From: Pomacea canaliculata
Taxonomy: Eukaryota > Mollusca > Gastropoda > Architaenioglossa > Ampullariidae
Direction of reading: 5' to 3'
Assembly: GCF_003073045.1 (NCBI RefSeq)
Contig: NC_037597.1
Span: 28,697,927-28,761,926 of the forward strand
Length of the DNA: 64,000 bases
A model generated the notes under the pieces. It was given only the letters and a program-made list of their open reading frames with translations. It searched no databases and was not told where the DNA came from. Positions 30,055-59,300 of the stretch are shown here, piece by piece; position 1 is the stretch's first letter, and each line of letters begins with the position of its first letter. The translations under genes were made by a program, and so were the position numbers.

Positions 30055-33000
30055 GCCACCGCTAAGGATTCAGTTGCAGGTAAGCCCAAAATTTTATTAG
30101 AAACTGAAGGCATCAGTGCTGTTGTCCCAGATTATAATTAGAATTTTTCAGATTGTTTTTAATGATTCAACGATATAGATTTTAATGAGTGGTGTAGTCA
30201 CAGTACTAAATTATTTCAGTAACGGAAATCATCAGAGAAGGGCTATAATGTCAGCAGTAAGATATGACTTTATTTATCTCAGAGGGCAATGAGTAAAAGC
30301 TCTGTAAGGATGCAAACATTGGATCCACACAGCACATCAACAATCAAAAGTACCATCACACATTCATACCTGCCACACAAAACAAGATCCCCTACAATCA
30401 AACTTCAGACCTGCAAATGGTCACAATTCATTTATGCACAATTGCATAGTGGAAACAACAAAGAACAGCCTGGATCTCTTGGTGCTGCATGCGGTAAACA
30501 CAGAATCAACAGCCAGGTGGGATCTGATGGAACTGTCCTGATAGGACACACTTATCATTATAAAGAACTGCTGACACATGGAATAGTCTCCCTGTTACAC
30601 AGAGTCTGAAGGACACTATGGGTTATCCCAATAACTTTTGAGCAACTGCATGCCACACAATTCAAACTATTCTTGTCCTTGAATAGTAAATTGTTGTAAT
30701 ATCAAATGAATAAGATGACCAGCACATTTTCCGTATGGCATATTTAGAATACCTGAAGAAATCTTTGGAAGACTGAGAAAGACTTCAGTTTCTAGAGAGG
30801 GAAGTTAAACCTTTTTGACAATAGCCTAAGTGTTGATATCTCAGCAAAGTCTTCTGTTGAACATGGTGCCCAGATTTGTAGATGTGTTGACACTATCCAC
30901 CTGCTTGTGATGGATGACATTAGACTTGGTGAAGAATTCCAAAGGAAATAAAAGCAATCTCTTTGGTTTTACTAAGTTTCAAGAAATTGTCACTGCACCA
31001 GGAAATAAATTCATACAGGGCTGCTAATTGGTGACTACTGTCCTTGGGGGAAAATATAATTTACTGTGAAAAGTACATTGAAAATTTAACATAGTTAATT
31101 TTTCTTAGAGAACAGTTTGTAACTGATATAAAAATGACATAGCTGATCTTCTGTTAAGAGCCAGAAAAGTCTTCTTAGATCTTGTAAAAGATGTAAATGA
31201 TGACTAAGCAAATTTGATTGCCAGTCATAAAAATTGGACAACAGAGATTGATATAGCAAAGGAAAGTTTTGGTCTAAATGAGGGTATTTCATCAATTATT
31301 CAGTGCATGCACAGTATCCACTGATCAGTGGTTAAAGCAGAAACTGGTGGGGAGGGGGAGTCAGTCATTTACTGAGACATATGATCGTAAAGAGATAGTG
31401 TGAAAAAAAATCACTGCTGTGTTATAAATTTCCACAACAAAAACATGACACATTACTAAATGTATTGATAGTAAATATTCACTGAGCTGTTACATAATTA
31501 ATATTGTTTTGGTACAGGAATGAATCGTAGTAGAAAGAAATATGCAGTGATGGTTTGCCTATTGCCTTTAAACTTCACTGTGATATGCTTGCCAGATTCC
31601 ATATATATATATAGACATAGGGCAATAAATAAGAAATACTTTTCATCACAGTTTTGAAAAATGACCCTCCTACACCCAACCACCACCACCACCACCCCAA
31701 AACACACGCACACACAAAAGAGGGGACAATTTTCCTGGCATTAGACGAGTGTCTCCCTATCATTTAAGTACATAAAATATATTATGCAAAACACACTGAA
31801 ATAATTGTTGTTTTAAGCCTGCTATTTATTAAAAGCCCATATAATTATTGTTAGGCTTATATTTGTGCTGATAATAAATATGTTGCTCATGGATAAGCTA
31901 CTGTGCATCTTTGAAGACAACGCTCCACTACTTCTGTCTAATGCTCCTCACTCGAGAAGAAAGGTGTTGAAAGTAGCAGCCAACAAATGTCCTTTCTGCC
32001 AGCACACAGCTAACGGTGGAAGTCGGACACAGGCAAACCATGCAGGACTGTTTCATGCATTTCACAGACTAAGTCATGCTTCGCTTTCATCGTTTTGCTT
32101 TGTTTCCTCTACCCACTACCTAAAATTACTACTTTGACAAGAGCAGGCAACTGTAAACATGGTTAAGAACTTCTGTTTGATTTAAATCACTCTTTCTCCA
32201 TGTTAAGGAAGCTGAAATCGTGAAGCTCGTAGAAGACACCCACAATGAAAGAATGCTACAAACCACGCCATGCACATAAGCGAACCCCTCCCTTGCAATT
32301 TTCGACTTTCACTCTGCAGTAAGAAAACTGCTAAATGCTGATTGAATGTTGCCATAGGTCACCGACCTTGACAAAATACTCTCATCGCATGTAAATCTTT
32401 AGCATGAAGTCATGTGTAATCATTCTCATTTTTTGTGTATACATGCATACTTGTGTTTGGATGTGTACGTATGTCTGATCATGCTTGTAAATGTATATGC
32501 ATGCATGCATATATGTGTTCCATGTACCTCTTATATATTTGTATGTATATTATATACTTATGTATGTTTCAGAGGCATTTGAGCTGTTTGACACAGACTC
32601 TCGGGGGCAGATCAGTGCTGCAGATGCTGGAACAGCCATTAGAGCCCTTGGTCACGTGATCACAGACAATGAACTGAGGAGTTTGTTAAACCGAGCTGGA
32701 ATTGATCGTAAGTGCTGGGTGGAGAACAAAACATAAATGCAACATGTTATTGGAAATAAATGATGAATACACAACACCTTTTGAAGGCAATAAAAGAGTG
32801 ATAGGTGAATACACAAAACATGTTGACAACTTTGCAAATGAAAACCTGCTTGACAGTGACAAGGACACACTGCATGAGGCAGAGAGTCACAATCTGGACA
32901 GCACTTTATATCCAACATTTTTTTGCAAACAACAGTCAGGGGAGTCCCATGAGCTTCCTCTCACTGTGTTGAGAGCTGTGCCTATCTTCTCTCTTTGACT

Positions 33001-35954
33001 GCTTTACCCCATCATTCATCCATATGTGCCATTTGTCCCAGGTTATTGGGGTAAATACATAGATACATGCCACAGCTGACAAGGCCTGCCACTTAGGCCC
33101 CTCTAAGGTGATGGTGAGCAGGTTCTACATGGGACAACCAGTCCACTCCTTCATGTTCATAATCCATTTCTTCCTGTGGCCACTGCTGCATTGACCTGCC
33201 TCCGAGGTGCTGTGAAAAACCGTCTTTGACAGTGTGACATGCCGGGTTACATGTCCAAACCAGACCAACGTATGCTGGTTGGCTGTTTTGAGGAGAGGTT
33301 CCTGATCTCCGACAAGTGTAGCTGCTGTGAGTAGAGGTTCCTGATAGTCTGCACGTGTGGCAACCACTTTTTTATGTTACCTCTACAAGATCTAGAGCAC
33401 TTGTTCTGGAATGCCTGGACTCTCCTCTCCATGTTGGCAAGCAGAGTCCACATTTCATGTCCGTAATCAGGATTATACAGATTGGTCCAGCCATGCCATT
33501 GCTTACCTGATCACTGGTTGTTAATAGTCTCAGAGTATTTTGTGCTGACTTTAAGATTGCAGCAGTCAGCTTTCATGACTTTTATTTAAATTGCCCATTG
33601 GGACTAATAAATTTGGTTGTTATTGTTATTAACATCCTTTATAATGTTGCTCTCCCTGCTTGTGCAACCTTCACTAATGTCAGCCTCCATGCTTCCTCTT
33701 TTCTGCTGCTGTATCTGTAGTTTCATCAGATGGAAAAAGCTTTGTGGTCAGCAGTCTACATGCACTGGGCCTTCATGGTCAGCCATCAGTATGCACTGGC
33801 TTTATGGTCAGCAGTCAGCCTGCACCATGCCGATTATCCAAAGTACTTTCCCCTTTCCTTTCACCATTTTTACACTCCTGTTGCTTTCAAGGCTCACTTG
33901 AAAACATTCACTTCTGCTGATGTCTTCAGATGTTTGTCTTGTACAATTATAGGTACTTTGACTGCAGACCTCAGGAAGGTATGATCACAAAGCTCTTTTA
34001 GATTTTATACCACAAATACTCATCATTATTAAGAGATATTGTTTGCATAGTTTCAGACTGTTTATGCTTATGTGTATTTTGGAGATGTTTGGATACATGG
34101 TGGTTAGTGTACTTTGAAACTGAAGGTCACTGGTTTAATGCCTGCTTGGACCTTTGACTAGAAACTTCCATATGACAACCAGTCACAGTAGGGTACCTGT
34201 CCACCCATCAGAATGAGGTACCTGATTTAGCAGGGAAGGTAAAGGCAGCATAAGGAGTGTTGCACTCTGCTGTGTACATCTTGTGCTTTAGATTTTATGA
34301 ACTATGACCTAATGATATGGCTATGGGGCTTTTATTGCTATTTTGCATACATCTTTGATGCTATTAAAGTCATTTTAGGTGTATGATCACAGTTTAAGCA
34401 TCTAGGTTTGATCTTTACACTGTCTGATGTATGTTTTGATAATAGCAGTCCGCGGGCACGTGGACCTGACACGATTTCGTCAACTGGTCCAGCCCCTACA
34501 GGGCCGTAGCTACGGCAAGCAAGTGGAAGATGCGTTCAAAACCATTGACAAGGAAGGCAGTGGCTTCATCATGGTCACTGAGCTGCGCCACCTGCTGACC
34601 AACATGGGTGACAGGATCGCAGACGAAGACTTCAACCTACTCTTGCAAGAACTGGAGGTGGACAGCAATGGTCGTGTGTGTGGCAAAGGTCAGTGTCACC
34701 TGTGATAACCCTCTACAACAGGCAAGCTATGAAAAACATGAAAAACTTTTACACCAGGCAAGCTATAATAATAGTATTATTTCTGATAAATCTGTACACT
34801 AGGCAAGCTGTAATAGTAGCATTATTTCTGATTAATCTCTACACCAGGCAAGCTATAATCATAGCATCATTTATGATAAATCTCTACACAGGCAAGCTGT
34901 AATAGTAGCATTATTTCTGATTAATCTCTACACCAGGCAAGCTATAATCATAGCATCATTTATGATAAATCTCTACACAGGCAAGCTGTAATAGTAAAGT
35001 CATTTCTGATAAACCTGCTGGAGCAACCTAGCTAGTATTCGCTGTGATTAAACTAAACTTCTTCTAGATCTCACTGCTCTGATAATTCTTCTAGATCTCA
35101 CTGCTCTGGTTAATGTCCGTCTGTTATAAACTTGCTGGACCAGATAAGTTAGTATTGTCTCTGAAAAACTAGCTGCACCAAGCTGGTTAATATTGTTTGA
35201 TAACATACTTGACCACTGACCACACAAATTAACATTGTCTCCAGTAAGTTTGCTGAACCAGACTTGTTAACACTGCTGATGAAATTATTTGATTGTTTGA
35301 AATCCCCTTATTGTTATCAACCTTAAAAAGAGATGGCAAGAAGAATCACAAACTATTGTCAGAGTTATGCCTCCTTTTGCTACATCATCATTGTAAAAAG
35401 TATAAATCCTCAAGAAACTTTCTAGGCATGTTTCATAGGTCGGAGTATGTCAGCTGCTAAGATTGAAGATCATATCAGCAGAAGATTTTCTGTACAGCCT
35501 AGACTCATTATATGTCTGAAATCAAATAGAAGAAAAGAAAGACTATGAAATTAGTTTACACAAACTGCTAAAACATAGATTATAGCAAGTGCTATTTGAC
35601 AAAAGATATTCTTATCTGTTTATCTTGTCTCTCAATATTTATGTTTGCCCAACAGTAGAGCATTTTTGATCTGAGGTGTCTGTCATTGTTTCTGAGTAAA
35701 ACTTTATTACCTGTTCTAAACATTCAAGTACCAATGCACCATATCAGTTTACCTTTGTTGTGTTATGACAACTGTTCACCATATCGCATTGCCTAGCATT
35801 GTTGCTAAAGCTTCATGTATTTGATGCAGGGTCAACTTCAATATTACAATTAAAGAGTTTGTTAATTATGGCATATTATTAATGTTTTATTAATGGATTT
35901 TTTTTTTTTTTTTTTTGCATTCTTTTAGACATTGTTCGTCTGCTGTCCAGATGA
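30055..35954 (+). CDS. calmodulin-like protein 3, degenerate EF-hands (start exon missing)
   Basis: Divergent calmodulin-family protein on the plus strand. Exons 30055-30079, 32573-32707, 34449-34688 and 35929-35954 (stop TGA) join in phase to 141 residues. An ATG-only first exon, as in its neighbours, would make 142, but I could not place it. The protein reads ATAKDSVAEAFELFDTD at the start and GRVCGKDIVRLLSR at the end. Counting the missing Met as 1, loop 1 (16-27) DTDSRGQISAAD lacks Glu12. Loop 2 (52-63) GIDLRGHVDLTR lacks Asp1 and Glu12. Loop 3 (88-99) DKEGSGFIMVTE is nearly canonical. Loop 4 (124-135) EVDSNGRVCGKD lacks Asp1 and Glu12. Only one or two sites look able to bind Ca2+. Intron sites and phases equal those of CaM-like 1 and 2. 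Long introns hold LINE and SINE copies. No stop or frame break is seen, so it may be functional as a structural, largely calcium-independent light-chain-like protein; this is inference. Confidence 0.72.
30255..31050 (-). mobile_element. decayed LINE 3' fragment in CaM-like 3 intron
   Basis: Minus-strand reading gives broken stretches like the C-terminal reverse-transcriptase region of non-LTR elements. Examples are FISWCSDNFLKLSKTKE near 30950 and LFKDKNSLN near 30660. The left edge cagagggcaatgag resembles a LINE 3' end. The frame is interrupted many times. Family not assigned. Confidence 0.5.
31051..32572. other. intron of CaM-like 3, no further features
   Basis: AT-rich intronic sequence without a recognised exon. 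The 90-codon plus frame at 31865-32137 has no known family match. Confidence 0.35.
33005..33495 (-). mobile_element. LINE 3' fragment in CaM-like 3 intron
   Basis: Two overlapping minus frames carry the familiar C-terminal region of a non-LTR retrotransposon polyprotein: MERRVQAFQNKCSR, then QEPLLKTANQHTLVWFGHVT and KKWIMNMKEWT. It is 5'-truncated and frameshifted. The same family seems to supply the fragment at 53195-54060. Confidence 0.75.
34085..34268 (+). mobile_element. tRNA-derived SINE
   Basis: tRNA-like head with an A-box-like tggtggttagtgt and a B-box-like ggtttaatgcc. A body follows with acccatcagaatgaggtacc, a central motif also seen in the SINE at 57290-57552. Degenerate copy in CaM-like 3 intron 3. 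Confidence 0.5.
34715..35025. repeat. about 42-bp tandem repeat after CaM-like 3 exon
   Basis: Six to seven imperfect copies of caggcaagctataatcatag plus catcatttatgataaatct, starting about 30 bp beyond the splice donor at 34689. Confidence 0.85.
35026..35928. other. last intron of CaM-like 3
   Basis: No gene recognised. A short repeat of cttctagatctcactgctct occurs twice near 35058-35106. A run of about 18 T at 35899-35916 forms the polypyrimidine tract of the terminal-exon acceptor. Confidence 0.4.
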
Positions 35955-40218: not shown

Positions 40219-40366
40219 TCTGATGGCGCAACGGTTAGCACCTGTTAGCAATACAGTGAGGGTTGGCTGTCCTGGGTTCAGTTCTCGTCTCGGGGAACAC
40301 TGTTCTTCCTCTGCATGTGGCGTCTGTGGTGATACAGCTTTAGTTGCTGGCTCGGCATTAAAAAAC
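40219..40366 (+). mobile_element. tRNA-derived SINE
   Basis: A-box-like tggcgcaacggttagc and B-box-like gggttcagttctcgtctc sit at tRNA-like spacing, followed by a short body ending in cattaaaaaac. The stem pairing is too poor for a working tRNA. Confidence 0.6.
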
Positions 40367-40444: not shown

Positions 40445-42529
40445 ATGACGTGGGTACCCGTGGCGCTAGTGCTGGGCGTGTTGGTGGTGCTGGGTACGGC
40501 CAGCCTGCCGTACGGCGTGGAGCCCCTGGAGGACCTGTACCGCCTCAACCGCCTGTACGACCACGACGACCCCTACATGGCCCTCCTACCACTCGACGAC
40601 GTTGACAGCCGCAGCGACGACGGTGTGGAGGGAGTAGATGACAGCCTGTGGGCGGGCACTGACGTGGACACCTCTCTGTACAACAGTCCCCTGTACTCCG
40701 AGACACAGGTCCGCGACCAGGAGCACCTGGAGCACAGCGCTCTGCAAGGCTTGCACGCCGTGGCAGGTAGGTCACGATGGTGATGATGATACTGATTGTG
40801 GTGGCGACGACGTGACATTAAATTGACTTTTTTCTTCAGTTAATGTTAAAAGAACAGTCGCGCACACAAACAATCGTAAGAGTAAACACGAGTTACTTCT
40901 TGTTGTGCAGGTGGCACGGCAGAGGGCCAGCCCCCCCAAAAGCAGGTGAAGACTGATAAACCCTTACCTGCTTACTGCAACCCTCCAAATCCCTGCCCCG
41001 TAGGAAAAACAGGTGTGTATGACAGGGCCCTCCACGGGTGTTGCTGCTATAATATCAGTGTGTGTGTGTAGGACAATTCTTTATTGACGAGATTTAAAAT
41101 AGCAATAAAATGTTTTTTAACATTTTCCATTAAGAATAAACTAAGTAATTGAAGTAATTAAGTACTGTGAGAATAATTATTAGTAAACATAAGGTATCAA
41201 AGGAGAGTGGAAGGTACATATGTACAAAAGTGGTGGTTAAGAAAAACAGATATTTACAAGGTTTCCTGGAGTTGGGAGGAATCTCTAGAGGCTTCATCTT
41301 GTAAGTATTTAGATAGATGGTGACGAAAGCAGCTCAGGGAGTTCAATTTCTTAAGATCGAGAGGGAGGCTGTTCCATAGCATGCTCCCTGAGTATTTCAG
41401 ACGATTTAAAAAGGTGCAATCTAGGCATGGGAATATTCAGTTTTGAAGTTCTAGTGAGAGAGAGAGAGCTGGTGGGGGAGGGGGTGTGCAAAGACATGCT
41501 GGCAGACAGACAAGAGTCAAACACGGACAGAGGTTTCTACACAAGGGCTAACACTGGCGCACGTGTGTGAATCCGTTTCCTTGTTCTTACTCCCAATTCG
41601 TTTTCCATACCAGCGGCAGATAACTGTGTGGAGAACTTTGAAAACAGTATGGATAACAACAAGGAGATCCTTGCGCACCAGGATTGCCCCTGTGACACGG
41701 AGCACATGTTCCATTGCCCGGCCGGCCAGCAGACCGTCACCTCAAAGGGTGTGGGAGGTCAAGCCGCATTCTCCAAAGTCATGAGCGAGCTGGCGCAACT
41801 CAACGCTGACGACGATCTGACACTGGTCAGTGTATGAACTGAAAACTATCATGCATCTTCTGTCCAGACCTCTTATTCTACTAGCCATGTTTCACTCTCA
41901 AACCCTAACAGCCACGTTTATACCAAAATCTACAGTTGCCCCATGGGTTCTGTCCAGGCCCTGACCCCAACAAGCTTGTCATGGAGGAATCCTCACCCTA
42001 TCCAACTCTGACCCTGACGGAATACCATACTTTACCCATTGTGTCTACCTGTCTCATTGTTTGTGCAGGCCAATAACCCATACCTTGCCCAAGGTGTAAA
42101 GCGGGAAAAACTAGTTGCCAAGAAGTCACCATCACTCCTCCGCCACAAAAGAGTGAGTAGGAGTTAGTCTGGGTGACACAGTAAGGAAGATAACTATTAC
42201 TTCACCCATGAAAATGTGGCCTGGTCAGAAAAACTGAGCACTTATGCTTAACACATATACACACAGAATCACAGTAGATCTTGGGTGTGAAATAACATAT
42301 CAGTAGTGTTGTCTTAATCTCATAAATAGATAAGCGCACTAAGCAGCCTGCATATATTAGTGAGATGGACCAATGTATTCAAATATCAAGTCCATATGGC
42401 ACAACACTGATTACATTCACTTTACTGCTTTGACAGTCTCAGGAGGAGATGGACTACAACCCATACCTGCAGGGTCGCATGCTTGAGACGGCCGCCAAAA
42501 AGTCCCCAGAGATGGTTCATCCTGCATAA
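40445..42529 (+). CDS. SCG5: neuroendocrine protein 7B2 (secretogranin V) with two CT-like modules
   Basis: Secreted chaperone that binds pro-PC2 in the secretory pathway; its C-terminal peptide inhibits PC2. Exons 40445-40766, 40911-41012, 41614-41825, 42069-42152, 42437-42529 (stop TAA) join in phase to 270 residues. Residues 1-19 (MTWVPVALVLGVLVVLGTA) form a signal peptide. An acidic region follows, then the family hallmark PPNPCPVGKT at 132-141. Unlike vertebrate 7B2, the next part has extra cysteines (DCPCDTEHMFHC). Exon 4 encodes NPYLAQGVKREKLVAKKSP (215-233) and ends RHKR. Exon 5 encodes a second copy, NPYLQGRMLETAAKKSP (248-264). Vertebrate 7B2 has one such module (NPYLQG with VVAKKS). 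The RHKR at 237-240 is a likely furin-type site between the copies. A putative leader exon lies near two CREs. The gene is convergent with SMIM12. Confidence 0.9.
41070..41475 (-). mobile_element. LINE 3' fragment in 7B2 intron 2
   Basis: The minus strand reads SMLWNSLPLDLKKLNSLSCF, the usual end of reverse-transcriptase polyproteins in CR1/L2/Jockey-like LINEs. Its left edge has a caataaag-type tail on the minus strand. Only the last few hundred bases remain, with frameshifts. Confidence 0.65.
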
Positions 42530-43786
42530 ATGCTTTGGGCCTGATCTTGCTCTCCACAAATTTCCATGGAAGGCCAAAGTTTTGGCATTTTAGTGTTGAT
42601 GGTATTGTGAATTTGGGAGTTCTCACCTCTCCTGTACCAGATTTTTCTTTTATATTGCACAAGATATTAAAAATATATAGATATTAATGTGATATCAAAT
42701 ATACAGGGTAACTCATAAAGAACTGGGCACTTTCAATATTGTATTACTCAGTAATGAAATGTCTTGTGTACATACAGCCTAAATCAGAGTCAGTTTTCTC
42801 ATCCCACCATCTGCCTTTGACAGCTATTCCAGGCTTACCTGTGTCACCAGTCAGAGCTAGTGACCATTAGTGTAGCTGTGTGTGCTATAGTAAGCTGCAG
42901 ACAAATTTTAAAGGTAATTGTACAGCACAGTGCCAAAAACATGTTCACATGACAATTACTGAGTAATTATATTCAAAGTGTCCAATCCTTTTTAAGTAAC
43001 TCTTAATGGTCATATTAATCATCATTTGTCTTGAAAATCTGTAATGCTTACCTGACCATATATGTTCAGTATACTTCTTGAAATCGACAATAATCCATCA
43101 TACTTTTATAATCTGAAGGACAATGGAAAACTTTATGGGCAAATGATTTCTCCATTTGTAACAACAGTCAAGGGTGGTATAAAAATGTATAATATTATAC
43201 AGAAAGCCAAGCCTCTGTTGGTCAAGCAGTGAAAATGCCATTATAAGTGATTTTTGGATGCATCATTTGAAAATGATTTTTCAAATTTGGGTTAGGTCTA
43301 ATGTTCTTACCTTCATTTCTTCTAGTGGTTCCAATAGTCAGTAGGGAACTAAAAACCTTGATTTTTTTAAACAATTATTTATATGCCAAGCCAAGCCAAA
43401 CAGTGACTGTTCCTCATATAAGTTATTTAAGCTGTTGGGAGTGACGACAGCATGGTTCTGGGGAACAACTTTAGATTGGAAAAGTTCTCTGGCAACCTAC
43501 AGAAACTGTTGCACAGTTTTTGCTACCAGTAAAAAGACAAATGTTATCAGCTACTATCTCAAATTACAACACTTCTAGCTATTGGCTAGCTGCAATAGTG
43601 AAATAGAAATGGATACCAACTCTCTGTAATCTTTATGTCATGCTACAATTTACGATACATGCAATAATCTAATATGAAATATCTATAAATCACTTTAAAA
43701 TTTACTGTTTCATTTATTTTTTAACAAGATAGATGAAGTTAACAAATGCTGCAACCAATGCTTATTTACTGATCACTTGACAGCAT
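42530..43786 (+). other. probable long 3' UTR of 7B2
   Basis: AT-rich and without open frames. The stretch runs from the stop to the first good AATAAA at 43787. Confidence 0.4.
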
Positions 43787-43792
43787 AATAAA
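43787..43792 (+). terminator. candidate polyadenylation signal of 7B2
   Basis: AATAAA 1.26 kb past the stop. An earlier attaaa lies near 42667. Choice between them is not possible from sequence alone. Confidence 0.35.
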
Positions 43793-45343
43793 GACCGTAA
43801 CACCAAGTGCCCTGTGTATGGATCATGTTGTGCTTGGGGAAAGGATTTAAGGGAAGCACTGAGCCACACGGTGCTGACCGAATACGAGCATGTTCAATTT
43901 CAAATGCTGGCAATGCAATATTTTCGATGGTTCTTAGAAATCAAATGCAGACTGCAGGCACTGTATCAGTTTGCTAGTTTTCTAAAAGATTTTCACATCA
44001 GTAACTGAAGTGAGAGATATTCTTTTAATTCTGCAATATGGCTAGACCCAGAATTCAAAGTTCAAGTACCAAGTTTAAGTAGAGTCAGCTTTTTCCTGTA
44101 TTATAACACTGTGATGATTTACAGAAGAGGCAAATGATGATGGATCTTCATAGATGTGTCTCTTTTATTCACTCTTACAGACACACACTGTAACAAACAC
44201 TATCCAATATTTGATCATTGATAAGTAACAACAGTTTTCAAAACACTTTTCTAGGAGTCAGCTGAATACGAGAACAAGACAACAATCCAAGATATCTGGA
44301 ATCAGCATCTCAACAAGGAGATAACACAAAAGATGTCCTTAACAGCTTCCAGTGTGTATGAAAATGTAGATTGCTTACAAATACTAAACTAAGTTTCAAG
44401 ACAGCTCACTACTGACATCACCAAGCTCACAATCAGGACAATTCACAGTTTATGATGAAAAATGCACAAACATTCAAGATGGATGCACCACTGAACATGT
44501 AATAACATCAAAATATTTATATCTCCAAAAAACAAGGTCAAGACTGTATCACATACATACACACACAATGCTTTTACATCAGGTATTAAGACCTGCCTCT
44601 ACACTCTACAGTATTACTACCAACTTCAACAAAAAGGCAATGCTACTCTTAGTCATAGTGTAGCTGTGTATAAGATTATACACAAGGCTGGACATTATAA
44701 AACAGCTGCGTATAATTATGCTTCTGTGCTATGATCTTCATTCTGCTAAAGAATGTATATTATGACATAGCTGTATGCTTCTGTACATGCACAACTGTTC
44801 ACACCTCTATGGACCCTGGCTGAAAATGTTATCTTCTATTAATTTTTAACTTTTTTGAAGCAACTTCCCCTTGTGTATTACATACCCATAGTGTATTATA
44901 CAATATACTCATGCGAAGCTGCAAAAGGGTCACGATGTCTAAGGAATATCGTGTGGAAGCCTAACTCTCCTATTCCACAGCTTTTACCTCCCCTGATAAA
45001 TCTGGTACCCCGCTGGGTGGGCAGGGGAAGCGCTTGTCACAGACCAGGTTAGGGTCAGACCTCAAACTGCTGACTCAAGCTGAGCACAGTGACCCCCAGT
45101 TGAAGGCACTGCATGCCCCGCCCCACCAACCACATTTACTTGTGTGGATATACCTAATAAGCAGGAAAGGTTTTAAAACGAAAAAAATATCTAGCACTGC
45201 CAGTCCAGTACCATTAACAGTTAACATTAGGTTCCTTGTAAAATTATTTTAGTCATCAGATTTCTGCAAACACAACTCTGAGAAACGCTTTACACTTTGA
45301 GCTGAAGTCAGTGTGATCCAGCAGTCTTCTCTATAAACCACTG
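43793..45343. other. convergent intergenic space / SMIM12 3' UTR
   Basis: No gene recognised. A minus-strand AATAAA at 44164-44169 could end SMIM12, implying a 3' UTR of about 1.2 kb. Confidence 0.35.
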
Positions 45344-45619: not shown

Positions 45620-47397
45620 TCTAGTGTACAGCTCACTTCAGTTTGGGCTTTCCTGAAGAAGTGTACACACTGGAGGGACTGGACTGCAATGCCAGACAGA
45701 CATACACAGACAGTAAGATTTCAAGATCAAACTTTCTGAAACAGAAACCCACTAATCAGATAGACATACAAAGACAGCAAGATTTCAAAATCAAACAGAA
45801 ACCCACTAATCAAGAAATACATGTAAACCAAAGCAGGGTTGTAGGGTATTACCTGGTTTGGATGGAAAAGAGGGCTGTCAGTTTGTCTTCCTCATTTCCT
45901 GACAGGCCACAGGTTGCAGGTATTTAGACATTCTAAAAATATTTGAATTATGCTTCAGGTAGACACATTTTTGTAAAATTTATGGTCAGCGCCTTATCAC
46001 CATTGGCTGCTCTGCACATCTCTCTCTCTGACATTGATTGTGTATGTGTCTTTTAATGCCAAAGAAGATGTCTGACTGATGATTGTGTTCAAGTGTGCAA
46101 AGAGTGCGTAGTTGGGAAACCAGGTGGGAATCAATCACACCTTACAGTATTTTGTGATTTTGATTTCTTCATTTGAAGATTTTAAAAAGCTGACTCATGT
46201 CTAGCAGCCTGTTATGCATAGTTGAATTGTCTCTGGTGGTGGTCAAATCAACCCAATCACAACTGTGGTCAAATTAGTCAATGGTCAAATCAACCACCCC
46301 TTTCCCCACCCTATCAGTTTGTGGACGTATGTCATGGAGTATTTAAAAATCTTTTTCATTATGATTTCTCCACAAGCCGTTAACTAATTTTATTAATTAT
46401 TATACACTGATTGATATACTTAATATATTACAGCTGCATTTTACGATGGCCCTGACCTAGTTTTAACCAATATTAAAAAAAGACTAATATTACAATACAT
46501 AAAACAAATCTATATTATCTGGTTCAATAAAGATAGTTCACTAATAGCACACCAGGCACCTCACTCTTCTGTGTTGGTCTACTCAGCTACACTTCGACCA
46601 CTTACCGGTTTGTCACATCCGACTGCACCTTGAAGTCGTTGACTGGCGGAGCGAAACCATGCGGCTTGGATTCAAACGCTGATGATGCTTACAATGTCTC
46701 CACTTCGCAGGCTGACCATATGAAGCGATTTAATGTTAAGAGCTGTCTCTGTTTGTCCTACCCTTAACACTTCTCCGCTCACCTTCGTGACGGTTTGATG
46801 ACGAATATGGTTTGATCCAGTCCCTGGTGATTTATTTTAGGTCTCAGCATCTACAAGTCCAATTCACATGCCACAAAACACACTCTTTCGCATACGATTC
46901 GTTCATGTATTATTCAGAAAACAAATGCTGCGTGTTGCGCGATGCCAGCGTCCAAAGACACGAAGTGTAGAAGTGTGTAGAAGTCGCGGTGCGAGGTCGG
47001 CGAGCGTGACCTCAGGCAAGGTCAGAGGTCAGCCAGGGGACAGCACTCTCAGCGTCGCTGTAAACTGTAGCAAATGTCGCCCGCACCCCGACCACCCCGC
47101 TGACTACACAAATCAACAGTCTATGCGTCCACACTATGGAGGATCTCATACAGTAAATATACCAGTACTTGCACAGGTTATTTGGACTTGGAATACTTTG
47201 ATGCGGCTGCTTGCCGAGTCCACTGGCAGTCACATGTCGATAAGGAAGCGCGTTGGCAGTTTGCTGCTGGCCATGATTAGCTCACGGCCGTGGTCATGAT
47301 TAGATGGGGTCCGATGCTCCCACCGGAAGAGATAACGGGTAGTGAAATGTGATGGGATCCGACAGTTAGAGACTCTGGTCAGCTGTATCATTCATTC
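45620..47397. other. SMIM12-DDHD1 divergent intergenic region
   Basis: Holds the promoters of both genes. A GC- and CpG-richer part at about 46560-47300 is the best candidate for a shared promoter. The 143-codon frame at 46868-47299 has no known match. A direct repeat built on gacatacacagacagtaagatttcaagatc occurs in pieces at 45700-45800. Confidence 0.4.
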
Positions 47398-50300
47398 ATG
47401 GCTAGTGTACCTATGGTGTCAGCAAAAACTGTGTCCAACGACAGTCGGAGCGATCAAATGTATTCCACACTTAGCACCGATCCAGATGCTGTCCAGTCGT
47501 CAGACGACGACGACAGCGTTGATGTAGATAATAGTACAGAGACCCCTTCGCCGACAGCGGACTCACCTAGACATAGGAGATATTTGTACCCAAAGAAGGA
47601 GTTTGTAGACAAGCTGCGACCAGAAGAGATTCGATGGTTTCACCGCTCAGAGAATGCGAAGAAGTGGGCAGCTTTCATCGGCTATGACTCGCTGCGCATC
47701 GAGTGTCGTTATCGAGCTCTGGAAGTTGACAGCAATGGCGACCTTGATGCCAACGAGCGAATCCTAGTACTAGGAGGACTTTACGAGGTAGATGTGGTTA
47801 AAAAAAAGTGCTTCCCGGTCTACTGGTCAGGTGAGAAAAGAGTAATGTGTGTATGTGTGAAGATTCTTCAACTTTTACAAACCACATCACCCACGAACAC
47901 AACGAAGAATTACTTAATTTGTTATTCACACACTCTTGTGCACTTGATGTAGTGTAGAAAGATCATATTCATATTTAAACTTCATAGTCAAATGCAACAG
48001 GACCATTAATCAGCCTTATTTACGATTTTGTAAGCAGTGGCATCATGTCACTTTCAATGTTGTTAGCATCACAGATCTTATACAACTATTGCTGACTTTT
48101 CCATGTTTCTTTAAAATTATTTCATTTATTTTGTGATTCATATTTCTTCAGTGATACTGGGCCAAGCAAATGAAATTAGAATCTTGACATAGCTTAGATT
48201 TTTAAAATTACATCACCTTCCTTTAGTTATGTCATCATCATATACCACCTTTCCATCCTTTGTTAGAATACAGTTTCATTTTAAATAATGATTGGCTTCA
48301 TGCTGACCGTGTTATGCTTGCAGTTATATTGTACTCAAAATACATTTTGTTTAAAAAAAACAGATCTACTACATGGCCGAATGAGAAAGCCTGATCTATA
48401 AAGAGTTACATTATGTTTAACTTCATTATAGCCTAGCAAATTTTAGTATCTATAAATGTTGTAAGGGGCAGTGTAACTGTAAGAAATTAGTCTGTATTGT
48501 GGCTACTGTCTAGTGCATGCCATGGCCATAGTGGTTCAAGCGACCAGAGTTTCTGAATAATACCCAACAAGACATTTTAATAAAGTGTAAAGGGTCCCAA
48601 ACCTCTGTAGTGGTGAAGATATGATCTCAGGCAGAGCTCTGTAGTGGTGAACATAAGATCTCAGGCAGAGCCCATTTCACTCTTTTCTCTGTGCATTTGG
48701 TGATAATAAGGTCACCATTCCTGTCACTTTGTAACCTTTGCTGATAACTAAGGAAGCCATTCCTGGATTTTAAGGAGAAAACTATCTGCAGGCCTAGAAC
48801 CAATAACCTTCAGCTTCACTGTTGATTCCAGTCACCACCAGACTACAGAGCCTTCCTGTATGATACCTATATAGCTGTAATGGTCACAGGGAGTAGCAGC
48901 AAAAGTAGCTATGGTATATCTGTGGGGGCTAAATTGGTTATAGTAACTTTAGTAACTACTGGCTAAAGCTCCTACATAGCTGACAGTGAGCATGTTAGTG
49001 TCTACCATGTTAATGGGAGTAGCACATGTTGCAGGAGATGTATCTGACATAATTCGTGGTGCCTGGTTTTATGACTGCACCTGGCAGCCACTAGAAGATC
49101 GCTATGCCATCCTTATAGAAGAGGACCATATCACCCACTTTTTGGGCCAGCGCCTGGAGAGTGAATGTACTCAAACAACCAAGGGACACAAACCTGGTAA
49201 AGATTTCTGCTTGCTTTTATATCTTGCTATGTTACACTTTTTAGTATTATGCAGACAAAGTGGAACAACGCATAATTTGCTTAGCTTTTCTCAGGAGATA
49301 AGTGCAATTCTTCATTCAAAGCTTCATATTATGCTGTATACCAATCTATGCAGTGATTCACAATATCAAGTTCCGTGAGTTTCATGTGGACTGGAATGCC
49401 ACAAATGAAGTCTACATGTTCAGTGAATCAACATCTTCAAAGTTTATGCGCAGTGTGGGAAAGTCTTTGGGCTGGCAGAAGTGTAAGTATTGATGACTTT
49501 GCGAATTAGAGCTGGCATGTAACACTGGAAGATATTTAAGTCTTGTGACCTGTTGTTGCAGATAACCTAGGGCAGTGTCAGCATCATAGTTTGGATCAGC
49601 TCGCAGACTAAGAGCTTGCACTTTGCCATTCTGACCATTATATTGATTATTCTTGTTGTTATGTGGGCTGTTGTATCACTTGTTGTTACCATGCTGGCTG
49701 TTAAATTATTTGTTGTTCTGCCAGCTGTTGCATCTATTTTTGTTGTCATGCTGGCTGTTGTATCAATTGTTCTTGTCATCATGCTGGGTGTTGTGTCAGT
49801 TGTTATAGTCATGTTTTTGTCTAGCATGTGGTTATTGCATCTTTTTAGGCTGTTGGCATGCATGTCTATTATGCTGCCATGATGTCATGAGTTAAAAATG
49901 ATTATGATTTTTAAATTTATAAAGCTGAGCAATAGTTTGATGCTGAAAGTGAAAAATGCTATCCTACTGTGGATACCATAACAGTACCTCTGTTTGAGTA
50001 AGCAAGCCACCAAAGAAACCCCAGGCATAAAAGCATGTCATACATAAGGTTTCCAGAATTTGTCATTACTGTATTTGTGTTCCATTTTTAAATAATTAAA
50101 ATTCAAATGTCACAGCTGGTACCCGTCTACACCGTGGCTATCGTGTAGAGGCTGTGATGGATGACAAGCCTGCTGACATCACTCACCTTGTCTTTGTCAT
50201 CCATGGTATTGGACAGAAAATGGATTCAGGCAGGATAGTTCGTTGTTGCAAGGAGTAAGTTTTGTTATCTTGTTTTGTTTCCTTGTCACCAGTTGTTGGT

Positions 50301-53300
50301 CTATATTTCTTTCAGGGCACTCTTTGTTAGTCTGTCAATGTTTGCTAGATTTCCTATTACAAAAGTGTGAATCTCTCTACTTCCTGTCATTAGTTTTCTG
50401 TGTTGGCTCAACTTGCTGTAACAGCGTTGTGTGTTGGCTTGATGTTTGTAACAGCACAGCATGTCAGTTCAGCTTGCTGTAACTGAACTGTGTGTTGGCT
50501 TGTCTTGCGTAAGCACTGTGTACCTGCTTGACTTGTGTAACAGCACTGTGTATGTTTGACTTGTGTAACAGCACCGTGTGTCATCTCAGCTTGTAACAGT
50601 ATTATGTGTCAGCTTCATTTTCTCATTTAGCACTATATGCCAGTCTGATTTCCTGTTGTCTGTGTGCCATCCTGACTTTCTGTGCTACTGTTGTCCATCA
50701 GTCTTTATAATATATCATGACCAGTTTCAGTTCCTTCATAATGATTTGTGGCATGCTGTTGAATATGTTCTCTGTACAAAAATCACCTATGTGTCACTGT
50801 AAATTTTCAGTTTGCGAGGCTGTGTTGTCTCCATTGAGCGCAAGCTGTTCCCCGACCTTGGGTCAAGCAATCAGAGAGCAGAGTTCTTGCCAGTGGAGTG
50901 GCGCTCATCTCTGAAACTAGACGGTGGTAAGAAATATGTATATCATAGACTGTTGTATCAAACTGTACAATCTGGATATGTGGAACTTACTGGACTCGGG
51001 CTATTTACAGAGTAATTCTAACCATTGTTATATTAACATTCAATGACAAAAGGTTTCATGTCTAGAAGTCATGATCTGGGCTTACTGTATTGACTATTTT
51101 ATATATATTGGTAGGAACTTCCACAACACTGAACACTAAAGATTAGTGTAAAAATCTATTCCAAGAATTTGCCTTGCTTACCTAGTCTAAAGGACCTGTT
51201 GTTTATGCTTGAGAGGAGGTGATGATGAAACAGATGATCATTCATAAAAGGAAATTCATTGTGCATTTTCATATCATTACATAAGAAGAAGAAGAAGAAT
51301 AGGATCTGTATAGCAACATTTCTCCATGTGAAGGTGTGTGCAATTTACTTTACAAAAGACAGGGGGCAATAGGCAGTGAGAACACATGACATCACAATCA
51401 AGCAGAACATACCTGCATGGGTAACATACGCTCACATAGATGGTTAACAATACCAGGAAGATGAAGGAATGCTTGAAGAAAGGAAATGTCAGAGTAGACC
51501 AATTACAGTTGTTATTTCTTAAGCCTAGACCATAAAGCATAGAGTGTCTTCATTGCATGGGAAGGCAGACAAAGCATACCAGATACTGGGGCAAGAGAAA
51601 GAAAATGAACAACAGTTCAACAGCTTCTCCTGACCTGCCAGGCTGGTAGGGCGACAGTCCCAGACAGATAGGGACAGAGCCAGGAATAATATGGTAGTAA
51701 AGTATAGTGATCTTAAATTTGATGCAGGCCCAAACTGGCAGCCAGAAGTGGTGTGACATGATCAGCCTTCTGCTTGCAGAATACAATGCAAGTAGCATTG
51801 TTCTGAGTTCTCTGGAGCTTGTCGAGCAGGTGGCCTGGGAGATTCATAGAGCAGAGAGCCTGGACAATACAAATCCTGACCTAAGCTTCTTGGTGGAAGT
51901 AACAGATATATCTGATGTGACTGATCCTGCACAGTTGAAGAAAAATGGATTTTCAGATGGAGTTAACTTGCGAACATGATTCTTAAAGGACAGTGACATG
52001 TCAAAAGTTATTCCAAGATTAGTGACAGACGGAAAGAGTGATCATGTATCCAGAAAAAGTGAGTAATGTGGACAGAGGCAGATGTCTAAGATAATGTTCA
52101 GAGGCTATAAGGATAACTTCAGTTTTGTTTTTTACTTCATTGACCTGTAATTTGTTCATCAACATCCAGTGTTTGACAAAATCAAAAGTTTGCTGAATGC
52201 TGGCAAACAGTCTGTGGAGATGGCAAGCTTGGCCAGATGTCAGGAGTGTCGTCCTGTGGTACTGTAAGCCAGAATGGCAAATCACAGGGTCAAGTGGCTG
52301 GACAAAGGCAGTAAACAAGAGAGGAGAAGATGAAGCCACTGGAGGAGAATGTGATGGTCTAAAGTGCCAAAAGCAGTTGACATATTGACCATATGCAGGA
52401 CTGATATACGGTTGTGACAGACAGATAGTAAGTCATTCGCCACCTGTGCCAGAGCAGTCCCATTCAAGTGGTACTGATGGGTAAGCCTGTTGGAATGGCT
52501 CAAGAATATGCATGGCAAAGTGTTCTAGCAGCTGAGGAAAGATGACTTCCTCCAGAATCTGAGATAGAAAAGGATTGTTGGAGACTGGGTGGTAGGTCAT
52601 TAGGGTCAAGGTCAGTGAAATGACAGGGACATGTTTGAAAGGACGAACAGAGCCTGCTGAGAAGGAGTGATTAATGATCTTGGTAATAACAGGAATCAAG
52701 TCAAGGGACTTAAACAAGATGGCAGTTGAACAGGATTCAGCAACAAGATTTCTTAGGCAAGTTAGTGATGTCTGTGATATGATGCTTAACTATTGACACG
52801 CAATCTGTGAATGGTGCACCAGCAAAGCTGAAAAAACTGAGACTGATTGATGGGGCTTTCTTTGATGGTGTTGGATTTTTGGAGAGAAAAACATGCAGAA
52901 TGTATCTGGCAGCTGCACGGGTGAAATGGTATTAGGCTATGATGGTGTTGGCACTCAAAATGCATCTGACAGCTGTGCAGGTAGAATATTATGAGACAAG
53001 GATGATGAGATCTTTTGCTGAAAGAACAATGGTTGGCATAATTTGAGACTATTGTTCCTACAGAACAAAAGGAATACTGAGTGCCCAGTGAACTTAAATT
53101 ATTGTAAGTGAAGCCTAACAAGAACAGTCCAAGAGGAAAGAGAGAGAAGGCTTAGTTAATAACTAGCAAGACATAATCTGCTTTTAAATTCATGAAGGTC
53201 CTCTGACATCATCATCATTATCATCATCATCCATTCTTGTGCCTGTATCCATCCATTCTTGTGTCTTGTGCCAAGACTTGTGCCTGTACTTGCTAGTGAA

Positions 53301-56300
53301 TCTTATGATGTTGCTGCACCAGGTCCTGTTCAGCTTGGCCATTGATACTGTTGCTGCTGAAAATGTCTGCCATCTTTATAAAGCATAGCACCCAAGTTTT
53401 TGAAACTGTTGACCTCCTTGAGCTGCATTGCTCATGTAGATCGCTGCTTTACTGTGCCCAATGGTGTTGATGCTGACTTTGCTCTTGTCAGGACTAGTCT
53501 CTAGCCTGGCACTGGCACTGTCCGGCAGCCTCTTTGCAAGGGTCTTTAGTTTGCTGTTGCTTCCAGCCAACAGGTCAATATTGTCTGCAAATTAAGTTGC
53601 ATAGGGGTCTCTCACTCATGGAAATGTGGTGGGATGATGTTTCTTGCAGGATGTTCTTCAGGAAGATATTGAACACCACAGATGACAGGGGAGCAAACAC
53701 CTACCTTTGAAAGAAGTCTTTCTTCTGGTTGTTGAGTACTGCTGCATTCCTTGAGTTTTTACCAAGGGCTATAGTTGTTGGAATGAGATTCTCTTTAATG
53801 TTGAATTTTCTTATCAGATGCCATATCCTCTTGTGCTAAATTTTGTCTGTCAATTTTGTCAATTTTAAAGTCTATGAAGTCCTAGTAAAACTCTCTCCAG
53901 TCTTGAAGGTTCTTTTCTGTCAGGATTTGACCCCTAAAGATCTATTCAGCTGTGCTCCTTCCCTTTTTGAAGCCAGCCTATGATGCCTTTAACAACTCCT
54001 CGGCAGTGGAGTGATGCAATTTTGGATTACCTTAGGCATGACCTTGGAGCTGATTAGGTTCATGGTTCTCTTTACCATTTCCTTTCTTCTTTTCTTTATT
54101 TGGCTAAAAGCCTAGAGGGACATTTGAAGCCATGATACAATTATACATACAAACCAGTAGTATGGCCAGGGTATGACAAGTGATCACATCCAGTTGACTT
54201 TGGTCTCCCAAAATCTTCAACACAGAGAGATAAAGGCCTTCACTGTTTCTAGCCCACAATGCTTGAGCAGATCAACTGGAATACTGTCAACCCAGATACT
54301 TTTATTGCATAACAGCTGGTGTTACAGTACAGTCCCCCAGTGTCATCACATAACAACTAGTATTTTGTTCACAGACACAGTGGAGTCTATTACACCCCAC
54401 AAGATGAAAGGTGTGCGCAATATTCTTAACAGCAGTGCTATGGATATCCTGTACTACACCAGTCCGTTGTACAGATCAGAGGTGAGTTTAAAAACATCAC
54501 TGAGGTTTGATCTGGATTTGTCACATGATTTGTGTCATTTTTATGTTCATCCCAGGCTTCATTTTGCAGCCACTTTGTCTTTTGTAATAATAGTTCTTAG
54601 AACACATTCCTACATTTCATAGATAGCTGTTATTTCTCTTCTTGGTGTATTATAATCACTTTTTATTTTTTTTTAATATCAATTAAGTTTAATACTAATA
54701 AATGGGATGAATGGAAAGAATTACTAGTTTGTTGTTTCTTTGTTTTCTTTTTCTATTTATTCTCTACTGGTTTATTTTTAGGCTTATAGTTTGCTTGTTC
54801 TAGCAATGCTTTGTTACTAATATCATAGTCATAATTGTAACCATCATTCTTGTCATTTGGCATCAATGTATGGGCAGATAACGCATAGTCTCCGAGCAGA
54901 GCTGGTGAGACTCTATCACATGTTCTGTAATCGTCATCCATACTTCGAAGCTAATGGTGGCAAAGTTTCCATTGTTGCTCATTCTCTGGGTAAGTGGGCT
55001 GTCCACTCTGACAGCAGTGGGTAGAGCAGACTTCGTACTGAACACTGTGGCTTGCATGCTGACAACAGTAGTAAGAGTAGACCTCAGACTGGAGAAGTGT
55101 TCGTTGGGTTCATTCAAAAGAGTTTAGCTGGCAACATTATAAGTGTTTAGCAGCCTACCTCATTAGAGGAACTTTTGGTTTTTAGTGCAGACGTAACCTA
55201 ATTGAATGGAAAAATGAAGATTACAAAATCGCAATATGGATCTAAAGGAAAATAAGGCATAATCAACAACATTACATAAAACTTAAATGGGAAATTTATA
55301 GAGCACAACACAAAGTCATCTTTTTCTGTTCCTACTAGACAGAGCACTCAGACACAAACCTAACAATTTTCAGTCAGCGTAAACAAAGCCCTAAATGGGC
55401 AATAACCCCAAAAGTCCTAGACAAGGCTAACAGTTTGTTGTTGACTTCAACAGATAAAACCCTAGAGAAAGCAAAGCTAACAATTTGTAGTCGACATCAA
55501 CAGCTAAAGCCCATCTCAAAGCAAAAAGTAGTTGAACATTACTCACATGTTGTATAATGGGAGTTTGGTTGATGGAAATGTGCCTTTATATGTCGATTGG
55601 AATTTTGTTTCAGTTTCATGCTAGATCTTTGTTTTAAAATGCAGCACTCTTTAATACGATTACAGGAAGTGTCATCACCTACGACATCATTACTGGTTGG
55701 GATCCCATCCGGTTGTATGACCAGTTTCTCACATCAGTCTTTGTAAGTCTTTGTTTACATTGATTCTAGTGAATTTTTCACATCAGTCTGGAGTTGTTGC
55801 ATATGTCCTAGTATGCTTTTAACTGTAAAACAATAAGTTCTTTGCATTTGTCCTAGTGAATATGTCATTCAGTTACATCAGTTCTAGTGAGTTTGCTAAA
55901 TCCATACAAGTATGGATGGATCTATCTTAGATCTATCTTCGTAATTTTTTTTGCATCAGTCCTAATGAGTTGTCACTTTAGTCCTTACCATTTTATCACA
56001 TATATTGTAGTTTGACACAATGATCAGGAGTTTTGTCACATCAGTCCCAGAGAGTTTTGTTACATGTTATTACCTTATTTTGCTCTTTTGGTTTGGTTTG
56101 GTTTGGTTTGGTTTTACAGGATTCTTTGAAACAGCTCCATCTCCTGGCATTTGGCTAGTTTTCCTATTGTATGCATCTACTTTCTGTAAAACCTGTGTGG
56201 CATACATTTCATTTTGCGTGGACTGTATTGCATATGAATTGTCACTTTCCCAATGGTTATGCAGTTGCCTTGCATAGGAACCAGTTTGCATCTTGAAGGT

Positions 56301-59300
56301 GTCACTTTTCTACTGTGTACTTATTCTGTGCACAGATGTGCATGCTTGTGTATTATTGATAGCTGTGTGCAGACCAGTCACCTGGTAAATGTTTGCTTAT
56401 TGTTTGCTTATTGCAAGTATTTTTCATGACAGGAGGGAGAGCAAGTGGATGCACAGAGCAATAACCCACAAGTTCTAGAGGAACTTGGAACCACCCACAA
56501 GCGGTAACACACACCTCTGGTTCTGACTTTCTGGCTTATTATTACAGGGTATGCTAGGTGGCATGGCCAGGCATGAATCACATTGGTGAGAAAAATCACA
56601 CAGACTTTTGCCAGCCACCTGGTTCATGCAAAGTTTATTTGTGTACCCATGATGTACAGCTGGATATTTATTTGTGGGCCTATAAAGTGCAGATGGATAT
56701 TTGTGTGCCTATAAAGTGCAGAAATGTGTATATCCTCAAAAAGTGCAGATGGATATAAGAGAACCCACAAAGTCCAGATGGATGCTTATTTATTTACTCA
56801 TTATGCATAATTGTGCTGAATGTGCTGGATATGGAGCATCATTGTAAAGACTGAAGCACAATTTGTTTTGAATCAGTTATAATTAACTGCTGAGCTAAAA
56901 ATGTGATCTCTTGCATAAATACTGACATTAGTTTTTTTATTGTTACTCATTAAGGCAGTTGCATTCAGGTGATGATACTTTTTCTATAAGGAGTTTCTGA
57001 AGTTGACCACCACTACATTAGCAGCCCACAACACTTCACTCAAACTAAGTTTAACAGCGCCAGATGGCATACAAAATGTCAGCTTGGTCTTTGCTAATTT
57101 TATATGGCATTAGAAATGGTGAGCACAAAAGGGAAGAAAGAGTGAAGGAGGAAGAAGACATAAACAAAAATGGTTGTCGTATGGCACACCATGTCATATT
57201 GCAGAGCATGTGCACAGATTAAACCTTTATGGTTTGTGTTTAAATAATGCAAAGCAAGCTGCAGAGTGTTTGAACAGAGGCATCTGTAGGTAAAAGGTAA
57301 AGGTCATCCCATTACCTTTGCCAGGTTGTTAGGGAGTGAGGCATTAGAAACCTCACTTTTCTTGAGGCCAGCATGAGGACAATTCTCATTTCCTCTCCCT
57401 TTCTGCCTTGCCTAACCATCTCTGGAGTCAGATACCCATTCCTGCCAGCTGGGTTGACTGGGGGAAGTGAGCTGCCCTACATGAGTATTGAAGCAGTGCA
57501 CCTCACAGTTTGGACACCAGTTCTCTAAGCTTTTGGCTATCCACTTCCCCTATGTTACCTGTAAGTACCCATAAAGATAAGAGATGGTAGGTGAAAGTTT
57601 CTGATCTGTTGAGAGTTAGGGAGGTGATGGTTGGCTGAAGTATTGTGGGTTTGTTTACAGGGTCATGGAACTAGAGGTTTTACGCAAACACTTAAAGGAG
57701 AAACAAGCAATTGAGGAAAGTCTGCCATTCCAGGTAGGTCTGCAAGCATGTGTTTCTGTTACCGTAGCCTTTGTAAACCACCTGTCTGATCTATCTTCAC
57801 ATTTCTTTCCTCACATTTTTTGTCTTCCCATTTTTACTGACTTTATGTAAGTTGAGTGTTCTTTTTTTATTTGGATTTTTTGTTTGGTTGATTAAATGGC
57901 TGGGTAGTATTCTTAACTATTCCATGATACTGTGCTTTTGACAGGTGGAAAACCTGTTTTGTGTGGGATCACCATTGGCAGTGTTTCTGGCATTGAGAGG
58001 AATTCGACCTCAAGGCACAGGGTCACATGCTCATCTGATGCCCACCAGCAAGTGTCGACGGCTTTTCAACATCTATCACCCATCAGATCCTGTGGTAAGC
58101 AAGCAATTCCAGGTTAAACAATCGTCTCATTTTTTTATCGCAGGTGACATTGCTAGCTTGCTTCACTATCAACTCAGTTCCCAATCTTGCAGGTGATGCT
58201 GTTAGCTTGCTTCATTTCCTCTCATGTCTTATTATTTCTCTGCCATTTTTGAGGTGTGGGTGATAGGGGGTTTGTCTTTACATACTTCATGTTGGACAAA
58301 TTTATGCCACACACTTTTACCTTTTAAGATGGAACCTTTTTCTGTTTCTTGGTGCCATAGACAATTGTCAAAAATTGTAACTTCTCATACCTTTCAGCGG
58401 CTGGGGCAATATCTAAGGTGTTTGTTGGTGGTGGCCGGTTCAGTATTTCTTTAAAATGTTCTGCCCAGCGAGATATTTGTTCTGCATCCCCGGTAATGAC
58501 GATGCCATTCTCATTCTTTGCTGGTCTACTGCATGCATTGGTGTTTTTCCTTCCTGACAGAATTCTTGTCATTTCATATAGTCTTTTTGTGTTATTTTGC
58601 CCAGCTGCTTCTTCTGCCTCTTCTGCATCCTGTGTGTAAATTGTCTCTTGCACTCTTCTTCACTTCTCAGTTCATCTCCCAGTACTTTGCTCTGAGCTCT
58701 TCTTTTTCCTGCTGGTCTTGACATCGGTTGATCTGCTTCAGCTCTTTCCTTTCCTGTATCGTTTGTCAGGTCCCTAAAGTCAGCCATTCCTTGTGCTGTT
58801 TTTCTTTCTTTCCCAGAACGTGTGTGCAGGCAGTCTTCCAGGTCTCCTGTAATCCTGTCCTGTGGTTGGCCACTGTTTCTACCCGGATTCCCTCCAGCGC
58901 TGCAAACTGTTTTTAACTTCGCAGTTGAACTCTTCTTGCTTTCTGCGGTCTCTAAGAAACTGCACGTTGAATTTATAGTGCAGTCTGTCTGATGAGTCAC
59001 GGAAGGACCTCAGCTTTTTCTTCATGGTTGCCACAAGCAGGTGGTGGTCTGTGGCTGCATCTGCGCCACGCCTTACCCTGACATCCGGCAGACTCCTAAA
59101 CTGGCGATTAATGGTAATGTGATCGATCTGGTTTTTTGTATTTCTATCTGGTGAAGTCCAGGTGGTCTTGTGAATGGTTTTGTGTGGAAAAACTGTGCCT
59201 CAGGGTCATTGAAAAAACAGAAGTCTGTGAGCAGCTCACCATTTTCATTGCACCATTTTCTAGTGATTAGTGTTTCTGAAACTAAAGAACTGTCATTGAT

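Follow-up and report, generated by a model that had tools for sequence, protein, structure and literature searches.

An otherwise ordinary 7B2 gene in Pomacea canaliculata encodes two modules that resemble the PC2-inhibiting CT peptide, one on each side of a furin-type cleavage site. By comparison with mammalian 7B2 we propose, with about even confidence, that exon 5 provides the CT inhibitor that is released, and that module 1, in exon 4, serves as a second, tethered brake. The window, by which we mean the whole stretch of DNA analysed, is 64 kb long, has a GC content of 42.8% and contains no N. The gene occupies 40445-42529 of the + strand, and its five exons, separated by GT-AG introns, join into one open frame of 270 codons (270 aa). 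The splice donors of the four introns match 8, 8, 7 and 7 of the 9 consensus positions. The features of the gene are as follows.

40445-40766, + strand: 7B2 coding exon 1, with the start codon, a hydrophobic N terminus and an acidic region; open frame, donor CAG/GTAGGT.
40911-41012, + strand: 7B2 coding exon 2, within the Pfam match; it carries the PPNPCPVGKT signature, of which PPNPCP occupies 40982-40999.
41614-41825, + strand: 7B2 coding exon 3, which carries four of the six cysteines.
42069-42152, + strand: 7B2 exon 4, 84 nt, 28 codons, phase 0/0, with module 1 and the furin-type site.
42075-42131, + strand: module 1, NPYLAQGVKREKLVAKKSP, residues 215-233; it aligns to the human CT peptide quoted in PMC3412831 with a score of 50.
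42099-42104, + strand: internal dibasic KR in module 1, residues 223-224, a putative convertase cut.
42141-42152, + strand: RHKR, residues 237-240, at the end of exon 4, the only R-X-K/R-R site of the protein.
42437-42529, + strand: 7B2 exon 5, the last coding exon, 93 nt, entered in phase 0, with the canonical CT peptide and the stop.
42458-42508, + strand: module 2, NPYLQGRMLETAAKKSP, residues 248-264; score 51 against the same quoted human peptide.
43787-43792, + strand: AATAAA, a possible polyadenylation signal 1.26 kb past the stop, the sole exact AATAAA in 42530-45000.

The N terminus of the protein, MTWVPVALVLGVLVVLGTAS, is signal-peptide-like as judged by eye rather than by a predictor. 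Six cysteines, at residues 130, 136, 146, 166, 168 and 176, are encoded by exons within 40911-41825, and the Pomacea protein possibly forms additional disulfides. At the start of exon 3 (41614-41620) two possible in-frame acceptors lie 6 bases apart (CAG CGGCAG), giving either GKT-AA-DNC or GKT-DNC. Human 7B2 has a one-Ala isoform difference at the equivalent place.

Judged by its sequence, the gene is an ordinary 7B2 (secretogranin V), the identity given to it in the preliminary description. The whole protein matches Pfam PF05281 (Secretogranin_V) at 134.4 bits (E 6.2e-39) against a cut-off of 25 bits, residues 84-263 aligning with positions 59-228 of the 232 in the profile, and with exons 4 and 5 removed the score is still above the cut-off, at 116.3 bits. 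The PPNPCP signature is present as CNPPNPCPVGKT, in codons from 40982, and the accessible text of PMC11521371 describes it as conserved across all aligned bilaterian 7B2s. RHKR at residues 237-240 provides a furin-type site, at which cleavage is predicted, and exon 5 provides a C-terminal peptide with NPYLQG and AKKS. A search of the PDB gave a single match, Spiderine-1a at E 2.5, which we judge to be due to chance.

Exon 4 translates as ANNPYLAQGVKREKLVAKKSPSLLRHKR, that is, NPYLAQG-x7-AKKSP with RHKR at the end, and exon 5 as SQEEMDYNPYLQGRMLETAAKKSPEMVHPA followed by the stop, that is, NPYLQG-x6-AKKSP. The two modules begin at N215 and N248, 33 residues apart. The protein as a whole has four dibasic sites, KR223, KK230, KR239 (in RHKR) and KK261, and all lie within exons 4 and 5. 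The gene model and the shuffles described below confirm what had been noted at first, namely two NPYL...AKKSP modules at this distance, each on its own phase-0 exon, and the interval then proposed, 42069-42529, runs exactly from the start of exon 4 to the stop codon. The second module does lie behind RHKR, as claimed, the sole R-X-K/R-R site being situated between the modules. The motif of exon 4, NPYLAQG, is one residue longer before QG, and 7 residues separate G and AKK there, as in the quoted human peptide, against 6 in exon 5.

Is the likeness of the modules more than a chance repeat? In a BLOSUM62 alignment module 1 and module 2 score 45, a value that none of 5000 shuffles reaches (maximum 40), and in an earlier run, in which both module sequences were shuffled, none of 2000 was as high (maximum 39). 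Against the human CT peptide sequence taken from the text of PMC3412831, exon 4 scores 50 and exon 5 scores 51, while the 5000 shuffles made for each rise no further than 45 and 48 respectively. When each module was run over the window by tblastn, the best non-self match was the other module, a weak match both times (E 0.22 and 0.24). Because the alignment scores beat all shuffles and the tblastn matches are reciprocal, the repeat is real at the protein level; a chance origin is rejected on the basis of the shuffles, and tblastn gave no convincing further copy of the module elsewhere in the window.

The DNA tells less. At this level the likeness of the modules is marginal (28, against 27 for the best of 1000 shuffles), and when the segment made up of intron 3 and exon 4 was compared by BLASTN with the one that runs from intron 4 through exon 5 into the 3' flank, there was no match below E 0.29, so that a duplication, if there was one, was not recent. 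A recent tandem duplication was rejected, the flanking introns being without homology. The earlier proposal of exon duplication stands in part: the likeness of the modules fits duplication of an exon or a motif, and duplication is a fair reading of the sequence, but a recent duplication is not. One might suppose that module 1 arose by an exon duplication specific to this lineage, and that it brought with it a true two-step control of PC2. The modules do share phase and order of motifs, with one furin-type site between them; however, unrelated flanking introns and a marginal DNA likeness speak against a young event, and we regard such an origin as quite improbable.

How does the family profile view the two modules? 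The NPYLQG...AKKS block of the Pfam profile lies at about columns 208-228, and exon 5 alone matches PF05281 over these columns, though weakly (13.7 bits, E 0.046). In the full protein, masking NPYLQG of exon 5 reduces the score from 134.4 to 118.9 (-15.5), and masking TAAKKS reduces it to 126.2 (-8.2). The core of exon 5 had been described as poorer than that of exon 4, a claim that the profile does not support: changing TAAKKS to LVAKKS in exon 5 lowers the score from 13.7 to 12.2 bits for the exon alone and from 17.9 to 16.4 behind exon 4, where a profile score is to be understood as a measure of how typical a sequence is and not of inhibitory strength. The human CT peptide alone, in the form quoted, has no match to PF05281 at E up to 10. 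The core and spacing of exon 5 are nearer the profile than the human ones, and the label of a degenerate copy is therefore unsupported here; by the same token, the model is not tuned to the vertebrate CT peptide.

Exon 4 alone has no match to Pfam, which is to say that module 1 is not recognised as a CT module by the family profile, a weak test because the human CT peptide alone is also unmatched. In the full protein, deletion of exon 4 costs 10.6 bits, masking of LVAKKS 4.0 and masking of NPYLAQG 0.2, while reversal of LVAKKS costs 1.6 bits and reversal of NPYLAQG gains 0.2 (134.6 against 134.4). Replacement of exon 4 by five shuffled versions gives 128.7-132.8, and by 28 X, 123.7; in a construct limited to the C terminus, nine shuffled exon 4s score 14.4-17.7 against 17.9 for the native one. 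At exon 4 the profile thus has a weak preference: it wants a basic stretch, with a slight liking for LVAKKS and none that is clear for NPYL. When NPYLQG is placed three residues before KLVAKKSP in the C-terminal construct the score is 22.1, against 18.6 for a scramble, and an alanine scan of N, P, Y, L, Q and G in this construct costs 1.9-2.4 bits at each position. One might think that the profile itself holds two modules. This idea was rejected, since the signal of the short construct shrinks in the full protein, where the same pair of NPYLQG and scrambled hexamer gives 137.0 and 136.4. A further full-protein probe had gained a residue by accident and is left out of the evidence. Of the 20 rows that these probes gave (alanine scan and full protein together), 3 show two matched stretches, and our own reading is that the signal in the short construct may be an additional local match, in which module 1 falls on the same CT columns. 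Taken together, the probes argue mildly against a module 1 being aligned among the majority of the sequences from which the Pfam model derives; protostomes could still have it.

If exon 4 looks to the profile largely like a basic linker, might it be no more than that? Under this reading, which we think rather unlikely, module 1 no longer inhibits; it serves the N-terminal fragment as a docking segment for PC2 or as a linker, or else is a spacer the main role of which is to carry the furin-type site. In addition to the probes, it has in its favour that exon 4 carries the only R-X-K/R-R site and that a cut at KR223 could split NPYLAQG from the KK core. It has to contend with the retention of both NPYL and the KK core of LVAKKSP, in a module that is closer to the quoted human CT peptide than all 5000 shuffles. 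A second tethered segment that binds or inhibits PC2 would be the likeliest reading of module 1.

The age of the second module is another matter. We consider it more likely that the two-module layout is old than that it is special to this species. Slightly more probable than not, in our estimation, is that protostomes (or bilaterians) had both modules from the start, that vertebrates have lost or blurred module 1, and that the present gene is an ordinary protostome 7B2, surprising only from a human-centred point of view. The decay at the DNA level between exons 4 and 5 indicates a duplication that is not recent, and the Pfam profile is closer to exon 5 (13.7 bits) than to the human CT peptide as quoted (no match). 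A further indication comes from a scallop, Patinopecten yessoensis, in which a secreted peptide named VAKKSPH has been confirmed by MS; its precursor is placed among ten new ones that resemble uncharacterised lophotrochozoan and/or ecdysozoan proteins, according to the available text of PMC5996578. This peptide gives a hint, within what that text contains, that both modules are widespread in protostomes. The profile itself pulls the other way, since no NPYL block stands out clearly in it where exon 4 aligns, as both the null result for that exon alone and the 137.0 against 136.4 in the full protein attest. Two such motifs may also occur in insect and mollusc 7B2. The likelihoods that we give to the several readings overlap with that of our best explanation because age and mechanism are separate questions.

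In mammalian 7B2 the inhibitory core is VVAKKS, and the cut is made after KK. As far as the accessible text of PMC8401130 describes it, cleavage of mammalian pro7B2 at the furin site takes place in the trans-Golgi network and yields 7B2-NT and 7B2-CT; the two remain with proPC2, and 7B2-CT inhibits PC2 in vitro and is cleaved by mature PC2. Were the Pomacea protein to behave in the same manner, a furin-like enzyme would cut after RHKR in the Golgi and free the exon 5 peptide, which would be the canonical CT inhibitor, with its KK in the active site of PC2, until PC2 cut the peptide at KK and so inactivated it. Module 1, lying before the furin-type site, would stay on the N-terminal fragment of 7B2 with a KK of its own and an extra KR; it may also offer its KK to the active site of PC2, forming the tethered second brake, and this brake might be lifted by a cut at the KK or the KR. 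Disorder is to be expected in the C-terminal region. The extra residue of module 1, NPYL(A)QG, counts against the tethered brake, as does the appearance of exon 4 in the Pfam probes as mostly basic linker. Two-step control of PC2 by the two modules, as suggested in the preliminary description, is a plausible hypothesis. The fragments SQEEMDYNPYLQGRMLETAA(KK), EKLVA(KK) or SPSLL, if found, would mark cuts at RHKR, KK and KR.

Do both modules occur in one protein? Exons 4 and 5 might be alternatives at the transcript level, so that no protein has both. Exon 4, in phase 0/0, can be skipped, and exons 3 and 5 then join in frame into a protein with one module, module 1 and the furin-type site both being lost; retention of intron 4 gives module 1, RHKR, VSRS and a stop, the protein ending four residues after RHKR. 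We regard this arrangement as very improbable indeed, for both exons have good splice sites, skipping of exon 4 leaves the protein with no R-X-K/R-R site, and among the exons found here the stop of this frame occurs in exon 5 alone. Within the scheme of a tethered brake, a doubtful elaboration is that the exon 4 brake delays PC2 until granule pH is reached and its KK or KR is cut, that the exon 5 brake is the one released, and that skipping of exon 4 is a splice switch for the timing of PC2.

Relatives of the locus were sought in collections without animal genomes, and none was confirmed among 20 pattern matches in viral contigs or among 261 in genome contigs. The PPNPCPVGK pattern had no match in these viral contigs and one in these genome contigs; in this lone match, L001 (a Micrococcales MAG), the pattern runs on into unrelated sequence that has no feature of 7B2, and we attribute it to chance. 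A 7B2 with two CT modules is not described in the literature searched, which took in a minority of the subscription journals.

The rest of the window holds several other elements. Open stretches with EF-hand matches are found on the - strand at 7643-8128 (best Pfam E 2.3e-17) and 9532-10014 (4.9e-11), and on the + strand at 32491-32736 (1.5e-05; at 24.7 slightly below the cut-off of 25 of its best model) and 34412-34705 (8.7e-09). The four lie upstream of 7B2 and resemble exons that belong to calmodulin-like genes of either strand. Downstream, a WWE_2 domain (33.7 bits), with stretches at 47353-47949, 50100-50258 and 54821-55024, all +, and the motifs VFVIHGIGQK and VSIVAHSLGK, seen by eye in the stretches after WWE_2, suggest a gene on the same strand as 7B2 of what we take to be the DDHD-type phospholipase family. 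The region 1-25700 is very rich in minisatellites, 126 of the 150 Tandem Repeats Finder rows starting before 25.7 kb (counted by eye, and the rows overlap). Before the start of 7B2, at 40225-40300 (+), there is by eye a tRNA-like SINE, gcgcaacggttagcacc ... gggttcagttc; no tRNA or Rfam match was reported within the window. Open stretches resembling LINE remnants were seen by eye at 52022-52432, 58324-59199 and 60321-60722, all on the - strand, and Pfam gave no retroelement match for the first and the last of these.

Many neuropeptides are products of PC2, an enzyme that 7B2 enables and also blocks. If both modules inhibit, a tethered and a freed copy, divided by the furin-type site, could be compared within one protein, and such a comparison would ask why a CT inhibitor exists at all and whether its release is needed for its inactivation. 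If both are common in protostomes, the single-module 7B2 of mammals would be a derived form, and the evolution of the inhibitor would have to be retold.

How does the Pomacea gene compare with known systems? Mammalian 7B2 (SCG5), as described in the accessible parts of the sources used, likewise has the PF05281 domain, PPNPCP and, ahead of its C-terminal NPYLQG...AKKS peptide, a furin-type site of basic residues; what the Pomacea gene adds is the NPYLAQG...LVAKKSP module before that site. In comparison with the quoted human CT peptide, exon 5 has a spacing of 6 instead of 7 and a shorter tail past the KK core. Human 7B2 has two cysteines, whereas the Pomacea protein has six. The scallop peptide VAKKSPH, known from the available text by name and without a precursor sequence, has a VAKKSP core of the exon 4 type and not of the exon 5 type; our guess is that it belongs to the 7B2 of the scallop, although the main text of PMC5996578, so far as accessible, does not mention 7B2 or give the peptide that name. 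Elsewhere 7B2 has been reported from annelids (PMC3890597), molluscs (PMC6425005), nemerteans, brachiopods and phoronids (PMC8557429) and Xenoturbella (PMC11521371), in texts the accessible parts of which give no CT sequence. At most, then, the present gene is a variant of the known 7B2 system. A parallel outside this family is proSAAS, a granin-like chaperone with a C-terminal dibasic peptide that inhibits another prohormone convertase, PC1/3; going by its description, it differs from 7B2 in its enzyme and is unrelated to it in sequence.
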